Shown in pieces: positions 3,324 to 60,709 of a stretch of DNA of 64,000 nucleotides. Source of the stretch: Nostoc sphaeroides (GTDB lineage Bacteria > Cyanobacteriota > Cyanobacteriia > Cyanobacteriales > Nostocaceae); assembly GCF_003443655.1 (NCBI RefSeq), contig NZ_CP031941.1, positions 5,791,001 to 5,855,000 on the forward strand, read 5' to 3'. The translations under genes and the position numbers were made by a program. The notes below the pieces were generated by a model. That model was not told the origin of the DNA. It worked only from the letters and a program-made list of their open reading frames with translations, and searched no databases. How positions within the stretch are numbered: position 1 is the stretch's first letter; each line of letters starts with the position of its first letter.

Positions 3324-4208
3324 ATGCAACAAGAAAAACCAGAAGTTTGTTTTTGTACTTTAGCTTTGGGTAAAAGATATCGCTCTCATGCTTTCCTATT
3401 AGCTGAAGATATTGAAAAACATTCGCCGGGAATATACTTAATCGTATTAACAGATAAGCCACAAGAATTTCAAAAATATTCTAATGTTTTAGCATTTAAA
3501 CATGAACAACAGAGCATTGGTTGTTACCACGATAAAAGGTTTGTAATTGCCAAAGCAATATCACTGTTTAATACTTGTATATTTATTGATGCAGATATCA
3601 GAATATTAGATAAGTTACAACCAGACATGAAATGGCTTCCTGGCATAACAGCAAGAAGCTGTACCAGTATTGTCCAACATAATCACGCATATATTAATTC
3701 CGTAAATGATGCTTACAAGGCAAATAGAGCTAGAGATTTGACTATTCTTAGCAAGCTAGCACAAAAGCTAGACCTGGATTTAGAAGATACTAATATCCAG
3801 TTTGTGATGGAAATGTTATTTGTAGTGACAAGGCAAGATGGACGGGAAATCGAATTTCTCAAGCATTGGGAAACCATTGCACTTTACTGTGAGTTAAATG
3901 GTTTTTATGGTGCTGAGGGTTATGCAATAGGATTAGCTGCTGCTAAGGCTGGATTACCAGTTCGATGGGATGCTATGGATGGTATTGTCTATTTCAAAGA
4001 TTGGGTAGAACGCCAGAAAATCAAAAAGGGACAAGCAAATCCAGATACAACTCTAATATATTTTCAACAGCATGAAGCCATTGAGTACCGCCAAAATTCA
4101 ATTTTCCAAAAGCTGGCACGTAAACTAAATAAATTTATCGGCTATTACTATCGTTCGTTGTGTTTAAGACTTGCGACATTGAGTAATTTTAATTTTTATT
4201 ACCGATAG
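3324..4208 (+). CDS. DxD-type glycosyltransferase (nucleotide-diphospho-sugar fold)
   Basis: A 294-residue protein with the layout of GT-A glycosyltransferases: an N-terminal CFCTLALGKRY strand-loop, and FIDADIRIL with a DxD motif at residues 89-91 that would bind the metal and nucleotide sugar. The C-terminal 35 residues are basic and tyrosine-rich (KLARKLNKFIGYYYR), a possible membrane-contact helix. Its AT content appears higher than that of neighbouring housekeeping genes. It is bracketed by two copies of the same small element (2851-3033 and 4218-4333) and followed by a DUF1919 gene, so it belongs to the surface-glycan cluster. Donor and acceptor cannot be predicted. Confidence 0.75.
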   Translation: MQQEKPEVCFCTLALGKRYRSHAFLLAEDIEKHSPGIYLIVLTDKPQEFQKYSNVLAFKHEQQSIGCYHDKRFVIAKAISLFNTCIFIDADIRILDKLQPDMKWLPGITARSCTSIVQHNHAYINSVNDAYKANRARDLTILSKLAQKLDLDLEDTNIQFVMEMLFVVTRQDGREIEFLKHWETIALYCELNGFYGAEGYAIGLAAAKAGLPVRWDAMDGIVYFKDWVERQKIKKGQANPDTTLIYFQQHEAIEYRQNSIFQKLARKLNKFIGYYYRSLCLRLATLSNFNFYYR

Positions 4209-5073: not shown

Positions 5074-6111
5074 TTAGTAACCATTAATCCTATCCTTTAA
5101 ATTCCGGTAATTTAGCTTAATATTATTGACTCTTTGCTGAATAAAACTCCTAGTATACTTTTGAAGAAGCATTAGCTGGCTTGGGCGGGTAAAGCTTTGA
5201 GGACGTTCTTCAGGTGATTTTAAATAGCGATAATGTAAAAACACATCTCGATATGGAATATTAACGTCTTCACCAGCGCAAAGTTGAGTAAACTTTGATG
5301 AACTTATACTCATATAGTGCAGATATGTCAATCTCCGCCCTTGGTCGTAGAGGATATTATCTACCACATCAAATTGAGAACTCCAATGATTCCCAGTTGC
5401 CTGTTCGCAGTCATAGCAGGCAAAGTTATAATAGGAAATTCCACTTCTCAAAACCATGTAGTTAAATAAAGATTGGTCAGGTGCTAAAAAAGCCATAACA
5501 TCTGCTTCACCTGCTGTTAATTTTTTGAGTAAGTCAGCTCTTATAGCTGGAGAAAAAATATTTTTCTTAGTGGCAAACCAACCAGCACAAAATACTTTAG
5601 CCTGCAAGTTTTCTGAATTGAAAATTTGCTCCATCTGCTCTGGAGAGCCATCAAAAATAAATTTTAATTCAGACTTATATTGAAAATCATTGACTACCCA
5701 ATCATAAGTATCTAATTTTTCATATACATAATCTATCGGCCGCATTAACAAGGTATCTGCATCAAAATAAATAAATCTATCAAAGGGGCCATCCACAGCA
5801 CAAAATTTGCGGTGCATAGGTAGCTCATAGAGTTCTGGGAAGCCCCACTCTCGCCAAGTTTTTTGCGCTCTAGGATAATTTTTCCATATCTGAGTAGCAA
5901 AGTTATCCCAATAGGCTATGGAATCAGAGTCTTCAAATAAGGTGACATTATCTCTAGATGCAAGCTCTGCCTTTACTTTGTCTAATTGCTGATTATATGG
6001 AAGTATACAAATAGGAATTTTACTACCAGCATTAGCTTCTATACTGTTGAGCAACGCAACTAGTTGGTCATAAACAACATCATTCGCTAGGATGTAAATG
6101 CCATCAATCAT
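5074..6111 (-). CDS. Glycosyltransferase, tandem paralogue 3
   Basis: About 345 residues; a GT-A-like sugar transferase with FIYFDADTLLMRP (DxD motif) and a C-terminal block YDQGRRLTYLHYM. It is a clear paralogue of the genes at 6128-7018 and 7022-8002: all share the start G-I-Y/C, a VxNDxV-type segment, ALLNSI, the DxD block and the Y-D-x-G-x-R-L-x-Y block. The open frame extends to 6147, but the ATG at 6111 has AGGAGT eight bases upstream and gives an N-terminus (MIDGIYILAND) that matches the paralogues, so this start is preferred; it leaves a 16-bp gap after the upstream gene. This is the last gene of the minus-strand glycan run. Substrate unknown. Confidence 0.8.
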   Translation of the reverse strand: MIDGIYILANDVVYDQLVALLNSIEANAGSKIPICILPYNQQLDKVKAELASRDNVTLFEDSDSIAYWDNFATQIWKNYPRAQKTWREWGFPELYELPMHRKFCAVDGPFDRFIYFDADTLLMRPIDYVYEKLDTYDWVVNDFQYKSELKFIFDGSPEQMEQIFNSENLQAKVFCAGWFATKKNIFSPAIRADLLKKLTAGEADVMAFLAPDQSLFNYMVLRSGISYYNFACYDCEQATGNHWSSQFDVVDNILYDQGRRLTYLHYMSISSSKFTQLCAGEDVNIPYRDVFLHYRYLKSPEERPQSFTRPSQLMLLQKYTRSFIQQRVNNIKLNYRNLKDRINGY

Positions 6112-6127
6112 TGGGATACTCCTAATA

Positions 6128-7018
6128 TTAAGTGCGGGCAGAAACAAAGGGAAATAAACGGCGAGTCAGTTTGGAGATGAAGGCGAATTTACCCTCATGG
6201 AGATAGCGATAGTGTTCCCACAATTGCCAATATGGACTACCAATTTTCATCCGCGTACCAGCCCAGTGGAGATATTTTAGTCGTTGTCCTCTGTCGTAGA
6301 GTGCGTAGTCTTGCTGTTGAAAATTTGGCGAACCTGCCCAACTACCAGGCCCGCCTCCAGGAATTCTGACAAGATTTCCACGCTTGGCAATTAGTTTGAG
6401 AACAAGATAATTTAAAATGGGTTGGTCTGTAACTCCTTCAGAAAAATCGAAATATTCTCGATGTGCAGCACATTCATGCAAAGCTTCATCCATCTGTTGT
6501 TCGGTAATAGTTCCTTTTCTCGAAGCCCAAAAACCGCTATTGAAAACGTCTTGAAATTGGGCATCTGAAAAAATTTGCTGCTCTTTCACAAATGGAGAAA
6601 AGATATTTCGCAGCTTTTCATTAGCATGATGATAATCACAACAGAAGAAATCGACTTCTGAAAGTTTGTCTAAATTGTCGGCAATTTTTTCAAAAACGAC
6701 AATATCCGTATCAATATAAATAAACTCATCTAAAGGGCCAAACCACGCCACTAGTTTACGCATTTTATTGGGTAAAGCAAGAAAATCTCGATCAAAAATT
6801 TCTCCGATGCGTTTGGTAAATTTATCAATAAGTTCTAAATCTGGAAAAATTTGCACTTGATGTAAGCTAGCAAGCTGCTCTGCTACCTTGTGATAATTTT
6901 CATTAAAAGGTATGAGATAAACGGTAACTTCTGGGTCATAGTAACGAATGCTATTGAGTAAAGCGATCGCATTATCGATAACCCGGTCATTGGCAACAAT
7001 ATAAATTCCCCTACTCAT
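6128..7018 (-). CDS. Glycosyltransferase, tandem paralogue 2
   Basis: A 296-residue protein, the most divergent of three tandem paralogues. It begins MSRGIYIVANDRV, carries EFIYIDTDIVVF (DxD) and ends with YDRGQRLKYLHWAG followed by a basic tail. AAGGA lies at proper distance before the ATG. It is separated from the upstream paralogue by 3 bp, so translational coupling is likely. It is expected to transfer a sugar to a growing surface glycan in the cytoplasm. The DxD and fold are seen in the sequence; donor and linkage are unknown. Confidence 0.78.
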   Translation of the reverse strand: MSRGIYIVANDRVIDNAIALLNSIRYYDPEVTVYLIPFNENYHKVAEQLASLHQVQIFPDLELIDKFTKRIGEIFDRDFLALPNKMRKLVAWFGPLDEFIYIDTDIVVFEKIADNLDKLSEVDFFCCDYHHANEKLRNIFSPFVKEQQIFSDAQFQDVFNSGFWASRKGTITEQQMDEALHECAAHREYFDFSEGVTDQPILNYLVLKLIAKRGNLVRIPGGGPGSWAGSPNFQQQDYALYDRGQRLKYLHWAGTRMKIGSPYWQLWEHYRYLHEGKFAFISKLTRRLFPFVSART

Positions 7019-7021
7019 AAA

Positions 7022-8002
7022 TTATCCTTGTTTAATTAACTTAAATTTTCGCAAAGCTCTTGTAAGTAAATTTGGTGTTGGAGAGTCATGAGAATTTTTA
7101 GGAGGATTTGTAAAGACTGGACGTTTTTCTGGTTCGTGTAAGTAGCGATAATAGAGAAATAAATCTCGATAGGGGAACTCAATATTTTCTCCAGCGCAGA
7201 CGGCTTGATTGATATTAGGAGGAATACCAATGTAATGAATGTAAGTTAGTCGATTGCCTTTGTCATAGAGAATATGCTCTCGTTCCTCAAAGTGCTTAGA
7301 GGTGGCAGAACATCCAGTTTTTTGATTATCTGGTAATTGTTGAGCAAAGTTATAAATAGAAAGATTAGACCTCATTACCATGTAGTTGATCAGTGGTTGT
7401 TCACCAGCCCCTTCATACAAAATTTCTGCTTCACCATTTTGTAAATAAGATATCAGCAAATCTCTTTGTTCTGAATTAAATACGCCCTGCTTTGAGCCAT
7501 AGAAGCCGGAGCAAAATATTTCGGAATCAATGCGCTTTTGCTGGAAAATTTTTAGTAATTTGGGAGAATTAACATTGTATATTTTACTAACATCTTTAAA
7601 TTGAAAATCGTAAACAACAAAATCATAACTATCTAACTTTTCAAACACCGCCGCGAGAGAGTTCATCACCAACGTGTCTGCATCTAAATAGATAAACTTA
7701 TCAAATGGCCCATCAAAAGCACAAAAACGACGGTGAGCGCCATACAAACGGAATTTACTACGATTCAATCGTTCTGGTGCTGCTGAGAGCATAAATTGAT
7801 CCCAGCGATTGATTGATTCTTGATTATCGTAAAGAAATACATTAGGGCGTTTAGCTATTTCATCAGCGATTCGCTGTGTCTGATCGTCGAAAGGATAAAT
7901 ACAAACAGGAGTTTCTGACCCCAAGATAACATCAATACTGTTGAGCAAAGCCACCAGTTGATCGAAAACATAATCATTGCCAAGGGTACAAATACCATTC
8001 AT
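7022..8002 (-). CDS. Glycosyltransferase, tandem paralogue 1
   Basis: A 326-residue protein with MNGICTLGNDYVFDQLVALL, KFIYLDADTLVM (DxD), a long shared block (EQPLINYMVMRSNLSIYNFA) and YDKGNRLTYIHYIG. By eye it is closest to the copy at 5074-6111, and both contain FPYRD or IPYRD followed by a tyrosine-rich FLHYRYL-type block near the C-terminus. It follows the GT10-like gene by 3 bp, consistent with one transcript. The triplet probably arose by local duplication followed by divergence of acceptor specificity; that last step is inference. Confidence 0.8.
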   Translation of the reverse strand: MNGICTLGNDYVFDQLVALLNSIDVILGSETPVCIYPFDDQTQRIADEIAKRPNVFLYDNQESINRWDQFMLSAAPERLNRSKFRLYGAHRRFCAFDGPFDKFIYLDADTLVMNSLAAVFEKLDSYDFVVYDFQFKDVSKIYNVNSPKLLKIFQQKRIDSEIFCSGFYGSKQGVFNSEQRDLLISYLQNGEAEILYEGAGEQPLINYMVMRSNLSIYNFAQQLPDNQKTGCSATSKHFEEREHILYDKGNRLTYIHYIGIPPNINQAVCAGENIEFPYRDLFLYYRYLHEPEKRPVFTNPPKNSHDSPTPNLLTRALRKFKLIKQG

Positions 8003-8005
8003 AAT

Positions 8006-8965
8006 TTATGAGTGTTGATCAACAAAGTTTGATAACCAGTTAAGCAGGTTTAATTTGTGTAAGATGATTTGACGTGCTTCTGCGATCGCATCTTTAGCAG
8101 CATACCAAGCATCAGGAGTGGCTGTCACTTCTTGGATGTAGGCAATGCCTTTTTCATCTAAACTGGGCAACCGTAAAAAACTACCCGGTGGCAATAATTT
8201 ATCAGCAGCCGGGCCGCCATAGTAAATTGGTAGACACCAGGCAAGTAAACTATCCCAAAGTTTCTCACTCACATACCAATTATTATCAGCATAATTTTCA
8301 ATTGCCAAATTGTAATAGTATGGTGCCATGCCATACCATTTGTTACCTAGTTCTCCCGATTTGTTAGCCCATTGTGGTAAGTTACGCCCATACAAATCAA
8401 ATTTCATGCCACTAGATTGTAGGGACTGCAAAAAGTCTAGACGCTGGCGATGGTTGACAGTGCGGCTAATTCCTGAAGTAATCCAACTACATGGAGCAAC
8501 CTTTTCGGGAGGTGGCATTTCATTTAAATCTTGAAATGAATTTGAGTGATACCAAATAGCAGGCATATAGTCAGGAGTGGGGGCAAAATCATCTGGGCCA
8601 GAAACGTAGCCGCAATACTTTTGAGCTTGTTGGTAATTATGATTAGTGATTTCTACAATTTCATCTAAAGGCGGTTCTCTTAGTAAATAAATAATTCGCT
8701 CTTTACTCACACCACGCAGTAAAGAATCAATATTTACTATTGATTGTTGTCGCTGTTTACGAAAACTATCTAACCAAGATTTTTGTGGCGATGCTTGGGG
8801 AAAATCAAATTGATACATCAGCAGAAAATCTGGTTTCGCTGCCAATGCCTGCATTTGTATATTGCCCCAAACTCCAAATTGATTCGGGGTTTGTTGCCAC
8901 AGCCAATCGGCTCTAGTTTCTAAACCTCGATAGCTGCTAATCATACCTACAGTTTTGATAGTCAT
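8006..8965 (-). CDS. GT10-like (alpha-fucosyltransferase fold) glycosyltransferase
   Basis: A 319-residue protein whose C-terminal half carries the conserved GT10 block: VSEKLWDSLLAWCLPIYYGGP (about residues 231-251) followed by LPPGSFLRL, matching the EKL-x-D-A...P-x-Y-Y-G pattern of bacterial alpha-1,3-fucosyltransferases. The N-terminal half (LMYQFDFPQASPQ, YLLREPP) is variable, as is usual for acceptor-binding parts. It is the first of four closely spaced genes (3, 3 and 16 bp gaps). A fucosyl or related deoxy-sugar donor is likely from the family, but not proven. Confidence 0.8.
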   Translation of the reverse strand: MTIKTVGMISSYRGLETRADWLWQQTPNQFGVWGNIQMQALAAKPDFLLMYQFDFPQASPQKSWLDSFRKQRQQSIVNIDSLLRGVSKERIIYLLREPPLDEIVEITNHNYQQAQKYCGYVSGPDDFAPTPDYMPAIWYHSNSFQDLNEMPPPEKVAPCSWITSGISRTVNHRQRLDFLQSLQSSGMKFDLYGRNLPQWANKSGELGNKWYGMAPYYYNLAIENYADNNWYVSEKLWDSLLAWCLPIYYGGPAADKLLPPGSFLRLPSLDEKGIAYIQEVTATPDAWYAAKDAIAEARQIILHKLNLLNWLSNFVDQHS

Positions 8966-8970
8966 TTTAG

Positions 8971-9016
8971 TTATTAGTCATTAGTCATTAGTCATTAGTC
9001 ATTAGTCATTAGTCAT
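8971..9016. repeat. Short tandem heptamer repeat (TTAGTCA)
   Basis: The heptamer TTAGTCA is repeated about six times between two genes of the glycosyltransferase operon. Such STRR-type heptamers are typical of Nostoc-like genomes; the same unit reappears near 19930 and a related one (TTTGTCA) at 16012-16032 and 56673-56705. No coding or terminator function is visible. Confidence 0.85.
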
Positions 9017-9041
9017 TTTGCTTAATATCCTCGATGTTTCC

Positions 9042-10265
9042 TTATACAACAAGTTGCGGTAACAGAGATTCATCAACATAACTAAGGATTTTTGCCGCTC
9101 TATTTTCCCAAGAGAACTGCTTGACAAAATTGATACTATGTGGGTAACCTTCTATTTTTCGGGGATGAGTTTCTAAAACCCGCTTTAGACATTCGGCAAA
9201 TTTGCTGGAGTTATCTGGCTCACACCAAGCAGCGATTGCTTGAGTATCTTGAAATTCAACTAATGATGGAATTTCTGTTGCTACAATGGGAGTCCCAGAG
9301 GCGAAGTAGTCAAATAGCTTTAAGGGTGATGTGAAAGTTGCCGCTTTTCCCGAACAATGAGGGTGAGCTAAAACATCGGCTGCTTGTAGCAAAGATGCTA
9401 AATCATTATGTAATATATAACCCAAAAATTTAATATTATTAACCTGTTTGTCTTTTACCAATTGCTGATAATCTTCGATATCTTTTGGCTTGCCACCTGC
9501 ACAAACAAATTGCACATTAGGCATTTTATTAGCCACATCAATTAATACATTAATACCTTTAAATTCCTGTAAAGCTCCCGCATAAACCACCAATTTCTGG
9601 CTTTCGTCTTGTAATAATTTTTGACGCCATTCTGCGGCTTTTTCGGGTTGTCTCTCCATAAATAAGCGATTAAAACCATTGTGCAGTTTAATCACTTTTT
9701 CTGGTGGCATTCCATTTTTAATCATGCTTTCGCGGATGGTGTCTACAACTGTGACAGCAATTTGCAATAGCGGATTTGTAACAATTTCTGGCTCAAATGG
9801 TTTGTCTTCGTGGTGGTGGTGTTCATAAATTGCCGGAACGCCATTTTTGATGGCAGCTTTGACAAAATTCCAGTTGCGACTGTGGACAAGTTTAGTAGTT
9901 GGAAGTATGTGAAATGGTAAATAATACTTGCTGGCAATGGTGTTAGAATCAGTAAATTTGCTCCGAAAATGGTCAATCGGCCAAGGCATCGGTAAGGGGG
10001 CAACTTTTAACTTATCATGGAGGTTGTAATATTTAATAAGTTCTGTTGGTGTTTTTCTCGGTTGAAAAGGACGAGCTAAATTAACTGGATTAATAGCTTT
10101 TGCTCCTTTTTCAAGATATACCAAAACTGTTGAGTATCCTAAGTTGGCAGCGCCGTTAGCGGCATTTGTAGACTGCACTAGGTGAGCCTCTGGCTGCGGC
10201 AACTCTTCACCAATGAAAAAAGTATAGTGTTTTTTTAAAGCAGGATTATTCATAATTTTAGACAT
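9042..10265 (-). CDS. GT4-family glycosyltransferase
   Basis: About 407 residues with the GT-B architecture of family GT4. The C-terminal Rossmann domain shows VVYAGALQEFKGINVLID (donor-binding start), VQFVCAGGKP, FLGYILHNDLASLLQAADVLAHPH and the SPLKLFDYFASGTPIVATEIPS block that carries the E/D-x7-E-like nucleotide-sugar motif in modified form. The frame is open to a TTG at 10280; ATG codons at 10265 and 10253 are more probable starts, and both lie at the end of the ABC exporter gene, so the two genes overlap or nearly touch. It probably adds a sugar to the lipid-linked or exported glycan. Start uncertain by 4 codons. Confidence 0.85.
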   Translation of the reverse strand: MSKIMNNPALKKHYTFFIGEELPQPEAHLVQSTNAANGAANLGYSTVLVYLEKGAKAINPVNLARPFQPRKTPTELIKYYNLHDKLKVAPLPMPWPIDHFRSKFTDSNTIASKYYLPFHILPTTKLVHSRNWNFVKAAIKNGVPAIYEHHHHEDKPFEPEIVTNPLLQIAVTVVDTIRESMIKNGMPPEKVIKLHNGFNRLFMERQPEKAAEWRQKLLQDESQKLVVYAGALQEFKGINVLIDVANKMPNVQFVCAGGKPKDIEDYQQLVKDKQVNNIKFLGYILHNDLASLLQAADVLAHPHCSGKAATFTSPLKLFDYFASGTPIVATEIPSLVEFQDTQAIAAWCEPDNSSKFAECLKRVLETHPRKIEGYPHSINFVKQFSWENRAAKILSYVDESLLPQLVV

Positions 10266-12579
10266 TAATACTATTCTCAAATTTTTCTAAATTTTCGAGC
10301 AGATATATAGCAGATTGATAACCTTCAGTAATTAATCTATTTTGTTCTTCTGTGGTAGATACCCAATTATCAGTTAAAAATCGCAGAGTGTTAAGTATAA
10401 AGTTAAGAGAAGTCCTAAACTCAATTGAGACATGATTAAAGGCTTGATAATAGCTACTAATAATATCTTGACTTTGCTCAGGAATTGAGATGATTTGCCC
10501 CTTGTGTTGCAAGTTAATAACATCTTCAAAAACATCTATAGTGTTGAGAAGTCTCAAAGCTGATTTGTAAGAGTCTTCAATTAATTCCTGCCGTTCTTTG
10601 GAATTATCTACCAGATCATCAAGTAATAAGCGGAGTAAGCCAATCATCGAGTTCATCTGCGTCCGAATTTCGTGAGAGATGCGGAGCAAGCTTTGCTTGT
10701 GTTTAGTAGTGGTTTCAGGATGTTCAACAAATTTCTTTGAGTTTAGGCGCATTGCCTTAAGAATTTTTGTCTGAATCAAGTTTTTGTTAGGGCGATCGCT
10801 AAATTGCATTGAGTACAAACGCGAGTAGTAACCACCTTTTTGTAACAATTCTTCATGGGTTCCCACTTCTACCACCTGTCCTTGATCTAATACGGCAATT
10901 TGATCGGCTTTTTGGACTGTGGAAAGGCGGTGAGCAATTACAAGGGTTGTGCGATCGCGACTCAAATCATCAAGTGCAGATTGTACTAAGCGTTCGGAAA
11001 CGGTATCTAAAGCGCTGGTGGCTTCATCTAAAATCAGAATATCTGGATTTTGCAGGAGGGCACGGGCGATCGCTAATCTTTGCCTTTGTCCACCAGATAA
11101 CATGACGCCGCGATCGCCAATCAAGGTGTCAAATCCTTGAGGCAATTTGCTAATAAATTCATAAGCATTTGCCCGCTTGGCTGCTGTCAGAATTTCATCC
11201 TCAGTAGCCTCTTCTCGCCCATAAGCGATGTTATTCTTCACCGAGTCATTAAAAAGAAAGGTATCTTGACTGACAATCCCCATTCGCTTTCGCAGGGATA
11301 CAACATCGAACTCCCGCAAATCAGTCCCGTCAATGCTAATACTGCCAGATATTGGGTCATAAAATCTGGGCAAAAGGTCTGCTAAAGTGGATTTACCAGC
11401 ACCAGAACTGCCTACTAATGCTAAGGTCGTGCCACGGGGTAAAAATAAATTTACATCTTTGAGTACCAACTTTTCATGACCAGGGTAGGTAAAGCAAAGA
11501 GAATTAAAAGACACGCCCTCAAGTAATTTTGTATAGGGAAGCTTACCCTGATCCATGAACGGCTTATCATCAAGGCTTAAAAACTCATTCGTCACATCTA
11601 CACTAGCGGCGGTACTGGCAAAGTTGCTGCGAACACTATTTAACTGAGAAATTAATGGCAGCACTCGCAGCAGCACTAATAAATATGTTAAAAGGACGGT
11701 GGAAAGAGAAGAAATCTGGCCAGCAAAGAAGGTTTTGCTCAAAAGTACAATCAACAGTAAAGCTGTAATACCCATCACCTCATTCAGAGGTGTAATCGCT
11801 TCCGAATTAACCTGAGATTGGAAATCTGCTAACTCGCGATCGCGAATTAATTTTTTGATCCTTCGATATTCTTTTTCTTCATTTCCCGTCGCCTTTACCA
11901 GTCGGATTCCGTTTAAAGTCTCCAGCACAGAGATTGAATATGCTCTAGACATCTCACTAAGCTGTTTTCCAAAAGTTCTAGACCGGGAAATGGCATACTG
12001 ATTTATTAACGTCACCAACGACAGCAAAATCGTAGCAGCAATTGTTAACTGCCAAGATATCGATAGCAATAAACCGACAAAAACTAAAATTGTGATTCCC
12101 AGGATAAGCATCCTGACTGTACTACCTATGGCACTTGCAGCCCGACCAATTTCTCCACCAAGACGGTTGATTAAATCACCAACTTTTGTCTTTGCATAAT
12201 AATCTATATCAATTTCTAGTAATAGCTTTAACCCGGTTTCTCGCATATCCGATGTCAGCTTTCGGCTTAAAGAACTCGATGCTAATGCGCCGGCATAAGT
12301 AGCTAAGTTTTTTAAAAAAATTGTGAATATAATCGCCCCGGCCATTACTACTATCCGGTAAGATTCTGGCGTATTATCAAAGGGAGTTATCAACCTTTTT
12401 AGGATGGGAGGGGCAGTCGTTAAATCTACTTCTTGTCCCACAATTTTTAAAATCACTGGCACAATTAAAGTTGTGCTGATTCCATTAAATAAGGCTCCAG
12501 AAAATCCTAACAATATTGTCAGTAAAATCAAACCTGGATAGGGTTTAGCGAATCTTAGTAGTAGTTTTCTGGTAGACAT
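10258..12579 (-). CDS. MsbA/HepA-type ABC exporter fused to two DHp-like helical hairpins
   Basis: A 773-residue protein. Residues 1-330 form a six-helix exporter membrane domain and about 350-600 the ATPase: Walker A GSSGAGKST (about 387), signature LSGGQRQRLAIARAL (about 492), Walker B ILILDEATSALD (about 518). This is a full half-transporter of the lipid/polysaccharide exporter group. It then continues for about 165 residues. At 635-650 there is SHEIRTQMNSMIGLL, the H-box of histidine kinases with the phospho-acceptor His at 636; about 80 residues later a diverged second copy reads SIEFRTSLNFILNTL, with Ile719 in place of His. Both are followed by similar helices (SYKSALRLL / GYQSAIYLL). 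No HATPase domain follows. It lies in the middle of the glycan operon and should export a glycan or glycolipid. Domain fusion is seen; signalling is inference. Confidence 0.9.
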   Translation of the reverse strand: MSTRKLLLRFAKPYPGLILLTILLGFSGALFNGISTTLIVPVILKIVGQEVDLTTAPPILKRLITPFDNTPESYRIVVMAGAIIFTIFLKNLATYAGALASSSLSRKLTSDMRETGLKLLLEIDIDYYAKTKVGDLINRLGGEIGRAASAIGSTVRMLILGITILVFVGLLLSISWQLTIAATILLSLVTLINQYAISRSRTFGKQLSEMSRAYSISVLETLNGIRLVKATGNEEKEYRRIKKLIRDRELADFQSQVNSEAITPLNEVMGITALLLIVLLSKTFFAGQISSLSTVLLTYLLVLLRVLPLISQLNSVRSNFASTAASVDVTNEFLSLDDKPFMDQGKLPYTKLLEGVSFNSLCFTYPGHEKLVLKDVNLFLPRGTTLALVGSSGAGKSTLADLLPRFYDPISGSISIDGTDLREFDVVSLRKRMGIVSQDTFLFNDSVKNNIAYGREEATEDEILTAAKRANAYEFISKLPQGFDTLIGDRGVMLSGGQRQRLAIARALLQNPDILILDEATSALDTVSERLVQSALDDLSRDRTTLVIAHRLSTVQKADQIAVLDQGQVVEVGTHEELLQKGGYYSRLYSMQFSDRPNKNLIQTKILKAMRLNSKKFVEHPETTTKHKQSLLRISHEIRTQMNSMIGLLRLLLDDLVDNSKERQELIEDSYKSALRLLNTIDVFEDVINLQHKGQIISIPEQSQDIISSYYQAFNHVSIEFRTSLNFILNTLRFLTDNWVSTTEEQNRLITEGYQSAIYLLENLEKFENSINV

Positions 12580-12809
12580 TGGGTATTTTTATGCCACTTT
12601 CACTTAATAATATAATTCACAAATTACTTGCTAGATTAGCTAATCATCAAACAAGTCAAACTAAATAATCTTCATCTCTCAACTCCGTGAAAACACAGTT
12701 AAACCTACAACAGCAGCAATCGTGATATTTTGCCAGATAGAATCTAGAATCAATTTGGCACATAAGGGAATGAAAATCTCTTTTTCAATGCCTAATGGCC
12801 TATTAATAT
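12580..12809. other. Gap inside the glycan operon
   Basis: A 230-bp stretch separates the exporter gene from the upstream GT4 gene. No convincing reading frame, terminator or repeat was seen. Because the other gaps in this run are 3-76 bp, a separate promoter for the exporter and downstream genes may lie here, but no clear promoter elements were identified. Confidence 0.4.
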
Positions 12810-13973
12810 TCATAACCGAGTAATTACCGACTTGAGTACAGAAGCCATAGCCTCTATGCTATAGTGTTCCACACATCTTTCTCTTGCCTTGATACCTCGC
12901 TGGCTTGCTGACTCTAAATTCTGAAAAATCAGTTGAATCTGTTCGGCAATCTGTTCAGGGCAAGCAGGCTCAACTAAATAACCAGTATCACCTAAAATTT
13001 GGGGAATATCTCCAACTCGTGTTGATAATATAGGTTTAGCCATTGCCATTCCATCTGTCAACTTTAGGGGAAATTGAGCGCGAGTTTCTGGGGTATCTCG
13101 CTGGGGGACGACTACAATGTGAGCCGCCGCTACCAAATCAGGCATCACATCAGCTGGATACTTTGGTAATTTGATAATCCAGCGTCCCCATTTTTGTTGA
13201 AGTTGCTGATCATAATCATCATAAGGACTGCCACCTACAATCACTAGTCTTAAGTCTGGCTGATTAATTTTATCGAGTGCTATAAGAACATCTTCTAGAC
13301 CTTTATAGGGTCTTGGCGCACCAGGAAACATTAAAATACGATATTCAGATAAACCATAACGATTTCTGCTGGACTCAGCATCATATCGAGCCGGATCAAA
13401 TAAAGAAGTATCCTTACCATTGGGGACAAATGTACCGCCAAAACGCTGCTGCAAAAATTTAGTATGCACCGTCACAGCATCAGCCTGACCTACTAAACCT
13501 TCCATCCATTTTACGTACAAAGGATGATAAGGATTCCTGAGTGCGCCGTCTGCTTTCAACAATTCCCTAGCTAATTGTTTCGGTGTGGGACTATAATTCC
13601 AGTCATCGCCACCGTACCAACTGAGTTCCCAATCATCTATGTCTAAAATTAACGGTTTTTGGCTAAATATTTTCTTTAGTAGGGCAACTCCAAAACTCGC
13701 TATTTGTGGTTTTATAGCATAAATTATATCTCCATTAATTTTTGGTAAAATTTTGCTGATTTCTCCAAATAACTCTGGAAAATTTTTGCCTGGTAAATTA
13801 TAAACGTTTAATTGGGATGGTAAATTTCGATATAAGTTATTTCCAAATGAAAAACCCAGAATTTCAACTTCATATTCTAAACTTTTTAGGGCTGTTGCTA
13901 TCAAGTATGCACGCAAAATAGCTGCACTTGATAAATCGGAAACCAACAGCGATATTTTGGAAAATTTTTTCAC
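12810..13973 (-). CDS. GT4-family glycosyltransferase
   Basis: A 387-residue GT-B enzyme. The N-terminal domain has ISLLVSDLSSAAILRAYLIATALKSL-type helix packing and DIDDWELSWYGGDDW; the C-terminal domain has ILMFPGAPRPYKGLEDVLIAL, LRLVIVGGSPYDDY and VVPQRDTPETRAQFPLKLTDGMAMAKPILSTRVGDIP, the usual nucleotide-sugar site. The start codon is GTG at 13973. The gene follows the DxD glycosyltransferase by 17 bp and precedes the ABC exporter. It likely adds a hexose during glycan assembly in the cytoplasm; the exact sugar is unknown. Confidence 0.87.
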   Translation of the reverse strand: MKKFSKISLLVSDLSSAAILRAYLIATALKSLEYEVEILGFSFGNNLYRNLPSQLNVYNLPGKNFPELFGEISKILPKINGDIIYAIKPQIASFGVALLKKIFSQKPLILDIDDWELSWYGGDDWNYSPTPKQLARELLKADGALRNPYHPLYVKWMEGLVGQADAVTVHTKFLQQRFGGTFVPNGKDTSLFDPARYDAESSRNRYGLSEYRILMFPGAPRPYKGLEDVLIALDKINQPDLRLVIVGGSPYDDYDQQLQQKWGRWIIKLPKYPADVMPDLVAAAHIVVVPQRDTPETRAQFPLKLTDGMAMAKPILSTRVGDIPQILGDTGYLVEPACPEQIAEQIQLIFQNLESASQRGIKARERCVEHYSIEAMASVLKSVITRL

Positions 13974-13990
13974 TATTTTAATAATTATTT

Positions 13991-14833
13991 TTATTTAATG
14001 CGCCAAGGATTTGTAACTTGATTCGGTAAAAATACTTGAGCGAATCTGTCAAAAACCCTTGTATATAAGGAACGAGTAATATTTTTAGCATATTGAGGTC
14101 GATAAGGATAGGTACAGTGAAGAACTTTAATTTGATCCTGAATATTATAAGCATCCTGCCACTTGCTGAGGTAATTATAGGTAGGTGGTAGGATTTTTTT
14201 ATGAGGGCGTACAGATGCGATCGCAGAAGCAAAAGCTCCTTGATCTTTTAGGAGCAATTTATCTTGGTTATTTTTGACAATTTCAAAATAACGTTGAAAT
14301 TCTTCAAAAAATATCTTGGTTACTTCTGTTTTCCGAAAAGCCATAAAACCGCCATTATACTGCACACTATCTGCTTGTAATGGTAATCCTACAGATTGCA
14401 GAATTGGCAAAACATTTGGCAAAAGGTCTTCTTGTTTACCACGTAATAAATTTGTAGCTTTAAGAATAGAAGGTTGCACATCTTCGGTTAGTAAAAACTC
14501 ATATTCATCTAAATACTCAAATACATCATTGATATCGGAAAGTAAACAAATATCAGAATCTAGGTAAATCGTTTTATCAAACTCAGAAGCCGCATATAAA
14601 GCTAACTTTGCTTGTCGTGATGCTAAAACAGTATTTTCATTTGCAGGCGCTGGCTTTAAAATTACATTTTTGAACGCCTTGAGCAAGGGATAAAGAACTA
14701 TTGGAACTTGGTCAATTAAAATAATGATCGGCTCTTGATGAAATTTTCTAACCGCCGCTAAAAAATGAATACAATCTTGAAAAGAGTAGAGTCCAGTTAA
14801 AATTGTAATAAATCCTTTAGTTTGTGTTGACAT
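13991..14833 (-). CDS. DxD glycosyltransferase, first gene of the minus-strand glycan run
   Basis: A 280-residue GT-A-like protein: GFITILTGLYSFQDC at the N-terminus, IIILIDQVPIV, and TIYLDSDICLLSD with the DxD motif, then YNGGFMAFRK, the 'acceptor side' block common in GT8-like enzymes. The ATG at 14833 gives MSTQTKGFIT. It appears to be the promoter-proximal gene of the eight-gene run that ends at 5074. No membrane segment is visible. Only the fold and metal site are supported; donor and acceptor are not. Confidence 0.78.
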   Translation of the reverse strand: MSTQTKGFITILTGLYSFQDCIHFLAAVRKFHQEPIIILIDQVPIVLYPLLKAFKNVILKPAPANENTVLASRQAKLALYAASEFDKTIYLDSDICLLSDINDVFEYLDEYEFLLTEDVQPSILKATNLLRGKQEDLLPNVLPILQSVGLPLQADSVQYNGGFMAFRKTEVTKIFFEEFQRYFEIVKNNQDKLLLKDQGAFASAIASVRPHKKILPPTYNYLSKWQDAYNIQDQIKVLHCTYPYRPQYAKNITRSLYTRVFDRFAQVFLPNQVTNPWRIK

Positions 14834-16688: not shown

Positions 16689-16737
16689 GAGACAGCACAG
16701 GGAGCAGAGGGAGCAGGGAAAGCACGCTAAATCTTGT

Positions 16738-16822
16738 ACAGACGCGATTAATCGCGTCTCCCTTGTACAGACGCGATTAATCGCGTCTCTATTCCTGACA
16801 GACGCGATTAATCGCGTCTCTA
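16738..16822. repeat. Three palindromic repeats between rplI and dnaB
   Basis: The palindrome AGACGCGATTAATCGCGTCT occurs three times (starting near 16739, 16769 and 16799) with short C/T-rich spacers. Each copy can form a 10-bp perfect hairpin. Close relatives are at 34-53, 58102-58158 and 40180-40278. They may act as transcript-stability or attenuation elements between the two genes; this is inference. Confidence 0.8.
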
Positions 16823-40158: not shown

Positions 40159-40179
40159 GAAAAAAGTTAGGGGTGAGGA

Positions 40180-40278
40180 GAGACGCGATGAATCGCAAGA
40201 GACGCGATGAATCGCAAGAGACGCGATGAATCGCAAGAGACGCGATGAATCGCAAGAGACGCGATGAATCGCGTCTGT
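40180..40278. repeat. 19-bp tandem repeat array (five copies)
   Basis: GAGACGCGATGAATCGCAA is repeated five times from 40180; the last copy ends in the palindromic GCGTCT form. Each unit is a half of the GAGACGCGAT...ATCGCGTCTC palindrome found elsewhere in the window. It is in the leader region of the LD-carboxypeptidase gene and creates a false N-terminal extension in translation. Confidence 0.85.
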
Positions 40279-57939: not shown

Positions 57940-58157
57940 ATGAGAAGTTAGGAGGAAGTTAGAAGTTAGGAGTTAGCAGTTAAAAATTTGAGAAATTAGG
58001 AGTTAGAAGTGAGAAGTTAAAAATTTTAAATTCTTAACTCTTAACTCTTAACTGCTAACTCTTAACTCCTAACTCCTAACTCCTAACTCTTACCTCTTGT
58101 AGAGACGCGATTAATCGCGTCTCTACTGTACAGACGCGATTAATCGCGTCTCTACTT
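57940..58157. repeat. STRR array and two palindromes upstream of psbQ (downstream side)
   Basis: AAGTTAG/GAGTTAG heptamers and their complements (TAACTCT, AACTCCT) run from 57940 to 58092. They are followed by two copies of AGACGCGATTAATCGCGTCT near 58104 and 58134, the palindrome also seen three times at 16738-16822. The psbQ stop lies at 58158. Confidence 0.78.
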
Positions 58158-60060: not shown

Positions 60061-60114
60061 AAATGCAGGTAAGCAAAATGAAGCGATCGCAACCCTTATA
60101 ACTACTTCTCTACG

Positions 60115-60219
60115 ATACAGCACTTCCGGCAGCTATGAGGTACATCCTCAAATCTGAAAGCTTTGATAGGAGAGGGCAAGGAGAAAAGCTGTATTGCATA
60201 ATAGCCGGAAGCGCTGTAT
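60115..60219. mobile_element. Short inverted-repeat element, TIR ATACAGCACTTCCGGC (family L)
   Basis: ATACAGCACTTCCGGC (60115-60130) and GCCGGAAGCGCTGTAT (60204-60219) are inverted ends, 15 of 16 paired. The 105-bp segment lies just upstream of the 21-bp tandem array and contains the first codons of the plus-strand frame that runs into that array, which makes that frame doubtful. Confidence 0.58.
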
Positions 60220-60275
60220 GCTTTGCGAAGGGTGCGATCGCAATAACTGTAAATATTTTTGTTTCTCTACTTAAT

Positions 60276-60527
60276 GAGCCTCTGAACTCCATTAATGAGT
60301 CTTTGAACTCCATTAAAGAGCCTCTGAACTCCATTAAAGAGTCTTTTAGCTCCATTAATGAGCCTTTGAACTCCATTAAAGAGTCTTTTAGCTCCATTAA
60401 TGAGTCTTTGAACTCCATTAAAGAGTCTTTTAGCTCCATTAATGAGCCTTTTAGCTCCATTAAAGAGCCTCTGAACTCCATTAAAGAGTCTTTTAGCTCC
60501 ATTAATGAGTCTTTGAACTCCTTTCCA
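60276..60527. repeat. 21-bp tandem repeat array, about 12 units, open on both strands
   Basis: Units of the form GAGCCTCTGAACTCCATTAA(T/A) repeat 12 times with ordered point variation (GAG(C/T)CT(C/T)TGAACTCC or TTTTAGCTCC; ATTAA(T/A)). On the plus strand they encode 7-residue units such as EPLNSIK and ESFSSIN; on the minus strand MELKDSL and MEFKGSL, each beginning with ATG. No stop occurs in either of these two frames. It may be a repeat that happens to be open, or a coiled-coil coding part of a decayed gene. Neither frame has a convincing start signal. Confidence 0.8.
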
Positions 60528-60709
60528 TTATTCAGCTACAGCAATTCCAGATCCTCGATTTATTTGAAAAATTAGGGATCTAACTGCAAGTAGTTTTGAC
60601 TCTACTTTGTCAGACATTATTAAATTCAGAATAAAATAGTAAATATATCTTTAGTTATTTATACTTAATTTATGATAGTTAAATTTGAAATCTAGCTTGA
60701 TAAAAATGA

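Follow-up and report, generated by a model that had tools for sequence, protein, structure and literature searches.

A conserved and apparently catalytically dead HisKA domain at the C-terminus of an MsbA/HepA-like ABC exporter from Nostoc sphaeroides

The gene at positions 10258..12579 (minus strand) of a 64,000-nt window of Nostoc sphaeroides DNA (contig NZ_CP031941.1; the window is the whole stretch analysed, and all coordinates are positions within it) encodes an MsbA/HepA-like ATP-binding cassette (ABC) exporter of 773 aa, which carries a tail of two HisKA-like hairpins behind a complete exporter core. According to the sequence comparisons presented here, this tail would be a conserved, catalytically dead HisKA domain (a pseudo-DHp) on a glycan exporter. 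The exporter belongs to a known family, and its tail, which is both real and conserved, is a kinase domain that can still be recognised but would be dead.

The open reading frame (ORF) has no internal stop and, from the ORF list together with Pfam and NCBIfam, corresponds to a half-transporter. Its transmembrane domain (approximately residues 1-330, limits approximate; 11590..12579; Pfam ABC_membrane at 59-304) and its ATPase domain (approximately residues 355-593; 10801..11517; Pfam ABC_tran at 373-522, with the ABC signature LSGGQ) lie in one chain and form a complete type IV, MsbA-like core of residues 1-593, the HepA profile match stopping at residue 593. A linker (residues 594-625; 10705..10800), which varies in length among orthologues and is modelled with low confidence, leads to the first hairpin, copy 1 (residues 626-692; 10504..10704), a Pfam HisKA match with predicted helices at 626-653 and 660-692. 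Copy 2 (residues 701-772; 10264..10479) is a degenerate duplicate delimited from Pfam, an exporter-tail profile, the structural model and the alignment of both copies. The acceptor position is occupied by His636 in copy 1 (codon 10672..10674), with Arg639 at +3 (10663..10665), and by Ile719 in copy 2, with Arg722 at +3. All of these features lie on the minus strand, which the initial annotation of this DNA had left out while numbering His636 and Ile719 correctly.

That annotation had described two HisKA-like domains without a kinase, and had called for a profile search of the tail. In such a search, copy 1 matches Pfam HisKA (PF00512) over residues 634-682 (E 2e-8; 34.6 bits, the cut-off being 26.9), and copy 2, scanned alone, stays below the same cut-off (E 6e-4, 20.2 bits). 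However, an ungapped alignment of 57 aa between the two copies shows 39% identity (E 2e-14), and the exporter-tail profile, named A2, recovers both copies (115.1 and 56.8 bits). The tandem tail is thereby confirmed, and the Pfam score, the profile matches and the identity between copies rule out a chance helical coil. As had been stated, the 773-aa protein has no HATPase domain by Pfam at E <= 10; no HPt row appears at that threshold either, with the proviso that the HMMER filters drop weak matches. In copy 1, the proline of the H-box (HExRTP) is replaced by Gln. The four-helix bundle that had been anticipated is also what AlphaFold2 predicts, for the tail as a single chain (no dimer), with both hairpins of one chain packing into one bundle; the residue numbers of this model plus 583 give those of the exporter. 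Elsewhere in the same genome, no other exporter-core match overlaps a HisKA match, the coordinates being compared by eye.

The hairpins of exporters and kinases can also be told apart by phylogeny. In a hairpin tree of 105 rows, with only 55 columns, all exporter hairpins separate from the 15 hairpins that belong to kinases of this genome (98*), whereas the 21 copy-2 rows form a single group (92) nested among the exporter hairpins, which argues that copy 2 most likely arose through duplication inside the exporter gene. As for the source of the tail, the best match of profile A2 among the kinases of the genome is a GAF-HisKA-HATPase protein, L211 (60.5 bits, the next kinase scoring 40.8), which suggests derivation from this group of kinases. 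However, the reverse search from the L211 group, with median scores of 49.05 for one-hairpin tails (n=44), 55.7 for first tandem hairpins (n=65) and 24.1 for second copies (n=61), gives no such distinction, since 16 other kinases of the genome reach 40.5-80.6 bits and the exporter tails are not singled out.

The acceptor position was followed in 178 distinct exporter cores under a strict rule, by which the hairpin had to be reached to its C-terminal part; 12 of these cores (paralogues, outgroups, losses and one contig end) have no tail hairpin under it. The 48 one-hairpin orthologues have Tyr in 44 cases, His in two, and Arg and Phe in one each, whereas the first hairpins of the 116 tandem tails have His in 94, Tyr in 19, and Asp, Gly and Val once each; in copy 2 the residues are scattered, with His in 0 of 116. 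A looser rule, from which the counts at +3 and +5 also derive, yields 151 tails (117 tandem and 34 one-hairpin), with His in 92, Tyr in 20, Asp in two, and Ser, Gly and Val in one each of the first tandem hairpins, and His in 2 of 117 second copies and 2 of 34 one-hairpin tails, one of the latter being L230, whose gene is truncated by the end of its contig. This looser set takes in two extra, shorter exporter frames that the length rule of the strict set drops, each a second tailed exporter frame in its locus (L063:1-1044, plus strand, and L069:13562-14479, minus strand). In both, copy 2 bears His (SHQIR and SHEIR), whereas copy 1 has Asp or Ser, the reverse of the gene in the window.

Mapped on a tree of the exporter cores, the acceptor has changed at least 18 times. 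This is a quick LG+G4 tree of 116 rows, in which the genome of the window appears twice (L001 and L212), L230 is shown as tail-less even though its gene is merely cut, and long outgroup branches meet, so that the root is not beyond doubt. Tyr at the base costs 18 changes, against 20 for the alternative, and the printed reconstruction contains six changes from Tyr to His and seven from His to Tyr; where the tandem clade begins, Tyr is ahead of His by one step, and His may have come in there once or several times. The ancestral form thus reconstructed would be a single hairpin whose acceptor is Tyr, later duplicated in the family of the window.

Other positions are far more constant. Arg+3 is kept in 149 of the 151 first hairpins, the exceptions being the extra L063 frame and the cut-off gene L230, and the proline at +5 is missing from all 151. 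Kinases, taken as a control, retain both residues, His and Pro, in all 22 of the related HisKA stretches (kinases matching the exporter-tail profile, plus L211) and in 15 of 15 kinases of the same genome. What the tail conserves is thus not the acceptor His. A correlation between the acceptor (His or Tyr) and the residue at +5 (Gln or Arg) was also considered and found no support, with four independent pairs on starred branches.

These counts bear on the proposal of the initial annotation that the exporter may be a phosphotransfer target for a partner kinase. In its wider form, a partner kinase or a phosphorelay would act on His636, or on the Tyr of its relatives. The majority of His among tandem first hairpins and the retention of Glu+1 and Arg+3 would agree with it, the codons for Tyr and His are one transition apart, and in the extra L063 and L069 frames, where the His lies in copy 2 instead, one His per chain may matter. 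However, an acceptor that is H, Y, D, G, V, S, R or F among orthologues, the universal loss of the proline, the near or complete lack of His in copy 2, the missing HATPase domain and the lack of a kinase in the window make this reading highly improbable here, and it is unlikely that the family functions by phosphotransfer via His636, since Tyr prevails in one-hairpin tails and seems basal. The two other readings of the initial annotation, a scaffold for a partner and a bundle that dimerises the transporter, are candidates taken up below.

The survey of cyanobacterial exporters that had been recommended shows the same tail to recur widely. A 183-aa tail query matches 164 of the 192 genomes sampled from the same family at E <= 1e-12 (the name Nostocaceae being ours, from named relatives), and the tail is therefore not due to chance. 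No more than 17 candidates were scored per genome, which makes absences weak evidence; among the matches listed, the tail sits in frames of 658-791 aa. One of the 164 genomes, G013, has no exporter at E <= 1e-120, and its match is probably something else. Together with 19 genomes without a tail match, it makes up 20 genomes that were checked, 15 of which have no exporter at that threshold, so most absences in the survey are absences of the exporter and not of the tail alone. Across the phylum, profile A2 matches 61 of 244 genomes at E <= 1e-15; judging from the listed frames and ranges, 45 of these read as exporters and the other 16 only as kinases, and 20 relatives of one class-level genome add five further exporter-type matches (G508, G510, G514, G517 and G518). 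Among 18 whole one-hairpin exporters, 16 have frames of between 670 and 721 aa, and the remaining two measure 751 and 765 aa. Hairpins are mostly single outside the family of the window and double inside it, and the pair L235 and L239 was duplicated separately: these exporters from beyond the order have a tandem duplication of their own, with Tyr in both copies of both. No plasmid copy of the exporter was found at E <= 1e-100.

Selection on the tail was estimated as the mean nonsynonymous divergence (dN) of each region over the mean synonymous divergence (dS) of the core (334 pairs, 36 genes). This ratio is 0.081 for the ATPase domain, 0.131 for the transmembrane domain, 0.178 for copy 1 and 0.321 for copy 2, with 0.40 for the inter-hairpin stretch (267 pairs) and 0.24 for the linker (48 pairs). 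With dN/dS well below 1, the tail is under purifying selection. Its loss is seen in two lineages of the core tree, L231 on the one hand and the clade of L232 and L233 on the other, all three still with the GT4-type (glycosyltransferase family 4) gene upstream of the tail-less exporter, and export itself thus seems independent of the tail. The L233 exporter frame is itself broken by a stop, and in L231 and L232 a different glycosyltransferase-like gene, recognised by eye, comes after the exporter; our reading of these few loci is that the loss of the tail may have gone together with an exchange of the cassette downstream. The faster evolution of the tail relative to the core, and of copy 2 relative to copy 1, as well as these losses, are what a functionless passenger in slow decay would show. 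We nevertheless consider such a passenger very unlikely, given the purifying selection, the near-constant Arg+3 and a tail that most sampled genomes of the family possess and that recurs in families beyond the order.

In the tail, what docks is kept and what is phosphorylated is lost, and, given the parallels with DivL, RetS and GacS discussed below, we tentatively favour the view that the pseudo-DHp does not work by phosphotransfer but serves contacts with other proteins, most likely by offering a docking face to a two-component partner that would couple signalling to export. In this view, the ancestral one-hairpin Tyr tail was duplicated in the family of the window; the two hairpins of one chain would pair, as modelled, into a bundle of four helices that follows the ATPase domain on the cytosolic side; the bundle would dock either a response regulator (the DivL case) or the DHp of a kinase (the RetS-GacS case); and the docked partner would couple the signalling state to export, docking, regulation and substrate being points that we infer. 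Against this stands the fact that Arg+3 is common in kinases too and could be tied to acidic residues of helix 2, at +46/+49. That it is so constant may therefore be structural and is no proof of docking.

The same structural reading of Arg+3 would suit an explanation that is nearly as likely, if still doubtful in itself: the bundle may be a clamp that holds or spaces the two ATPase domains, without any signalling partner. One-hairpin forms would then pair across the homodimer, as in kinases, and tandem ones either in-chain or in an assembly of eight helices. Dimerisation is what a HisKA hairpin does by nature, MsbA-type exporters are homodimers, both helices largely retain their hydrophobic pattern in the one-hairpin, copy-1 and copy-2 sets, and the natural losses fit a clamp that is helpful yet dispensable. 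However, several positions outside the hydrophobic core, namely Arg+3 (0 changes over the 109 rows of the tree), Gly+11 (2), Asp+18 (4), Glu+1 (5) and Asn+7 (7), are slower than most hydrophobic ones, Ser-1 (5) being also slow. This objection is limited by Leu+15 (2), Leu+13 (4), Leu+6 and Leu+30 (6 each), which are equally slow. The in-chain pairing predicted for the tandem tail would, in turn, make cross-chain clamping unnecessary.

The docking view can be taken further, to an exporter that is a direct, transcription-independent two-component output, where a phosphorylated regulator or a kinase DHp gates glycan export through the pseudo-DHp. We regard this as unlikely, although worth stating: a kinase dimerisation domain would have moved onto a transporter, been silenced, and then duplicated into a built-in pseudo-dimer. 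Should a partner dock, there would be a direct route from two-component signalling to polysaccharide export. Exporters with no, one or two hairpins, and with Tyr or His, offer in any case a natural series for asking what a non-catalytic DHp does.

The gene lies in a conserved glycosyltransferase cluster. The GT4-type glycosyltransferase upstream (12810..13973, minus; Pfam Glycos_transf_1) is the most constant neighbour. A second GT4-type protein is encoded downstream (9042..10280, minus; ORF list and Pfam), its longest ORF, with a TTG start, overlapping the 3' end of the exporter gene, and is followed by a GT10 family protein (fucosyltransferase C-terminal; 8006..8965, minus; Pfam). In the window, these two GT4s and the GT10 score above the Pfam cut-offs, two GT8-like proteins score below them, and there is one DUF1919 protein, whereas three of the nine cluster proteins (3324-4205, 5077-6147 and 6131-7018) have no Pfam match at E <= 0.001; by eye, these three look like their GT8-like neighbours. 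Across 100 loci from the family of the window (L051-L150, cut at various lengths, L068 and L150 bearing the same exporter), the upstream GT4 is present in 99, the GT10 in 97, gloB in 87, rplI in 79 and, at the opposite end, an ABC1-kinase-like gene in 61; the names gloB, rplI, dnaB and ABC1-kinase gene are ours, given by eye from the ORF list. The same GT4 adjoins the exporter in 19 of 20 loci chosen mostly for one-hairpin exporters, L236 being the exception. A lipid-linked glycan would be the natural substrate. The eight-gene glycan operon of the initial annotation holds as eight minus-strand ORFs (5074-14833) in a glycosyltransferase cluster; that they form a single operon is a supposition, as promoter- and terminator-like sites in the window are at chance level, the promoter-like ones being no commoner than in shuffled sequences.

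The window contains no receiver, further HisKA match or kinase, and no Rfam match or tRNA. A 21-bp unit is repeated 12 times at 60271-60521, open on both strands; neither of the ORFs over it (60110-60502, minus, and 60135-60575, plus) need be a gene. Tandem arrays at 16733-16820, 40179-40272 and 58098-58156 (units of 29, 19 and 29 bp) have in common a GACGCGATxAATCGC-like palindromic core.

Among known systems, the closest to the exporter core is HepA (NF045513), its best NCBIfam match, with 581.6 bits over residues 4-593. However, this score is below the equivalog cut-off of 725, and the same genome has a separate HepA (L002, 1062 bits) without a tail, which together rule out that the exporter of the window is HepA; on the core tree, HepA also branches outside the tailed clade. 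The lipid-linked glycan flippases MsbA and PglK score 461.8 and 245.2 bits, both below their cut-offs, and MsbA chains are among the PDB sequence matches of the exporter; we know of no HisKA tail described for either. In the titles and abstract openings of the open-licence literature searched, there is no report of an ABC exporter joined to HisKA. According to passages of PMC4390870, hepA, for the exporter of the heterocyst envelope polysaccharide, also lies among glycosyltransferase genes.

The closest parallels to the tail itself come from two-component systems. DivL from Caulobacter is described, in parts of PMC4211667, as a pseudo-histidine kinase whose HisKA has a Tyr acceptor and which binds DivK~P via a face that needs Arg+3 (R553) and no particular acceptor residue, DivL Y550H cells being impaired. 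Likewise, the exporter tail keeps Arg+3 and varies its acceptor (0 against 18 changes over 109 rows), although by profile it resembles DivL weakly (4q20, E 0.7). Pseudo-histidine kinases of the DivL kind keep the frame of the kinase, DivL itself having the CA domain and the other kinase motifs, whereas here the dimerisation hairpin alone is kept, without the CA domain or the H-box proline, on a pump. The nearest solved sequences to the hairpin are the GacS DHp chains, as in the RetS-GacS DHp heterodimer (PDB 7n0e), where, following sections of PMC12148439, the DHp of one protein captures that of another; RetS and GacS are both kinases, whereas the protein described here is a transporter.

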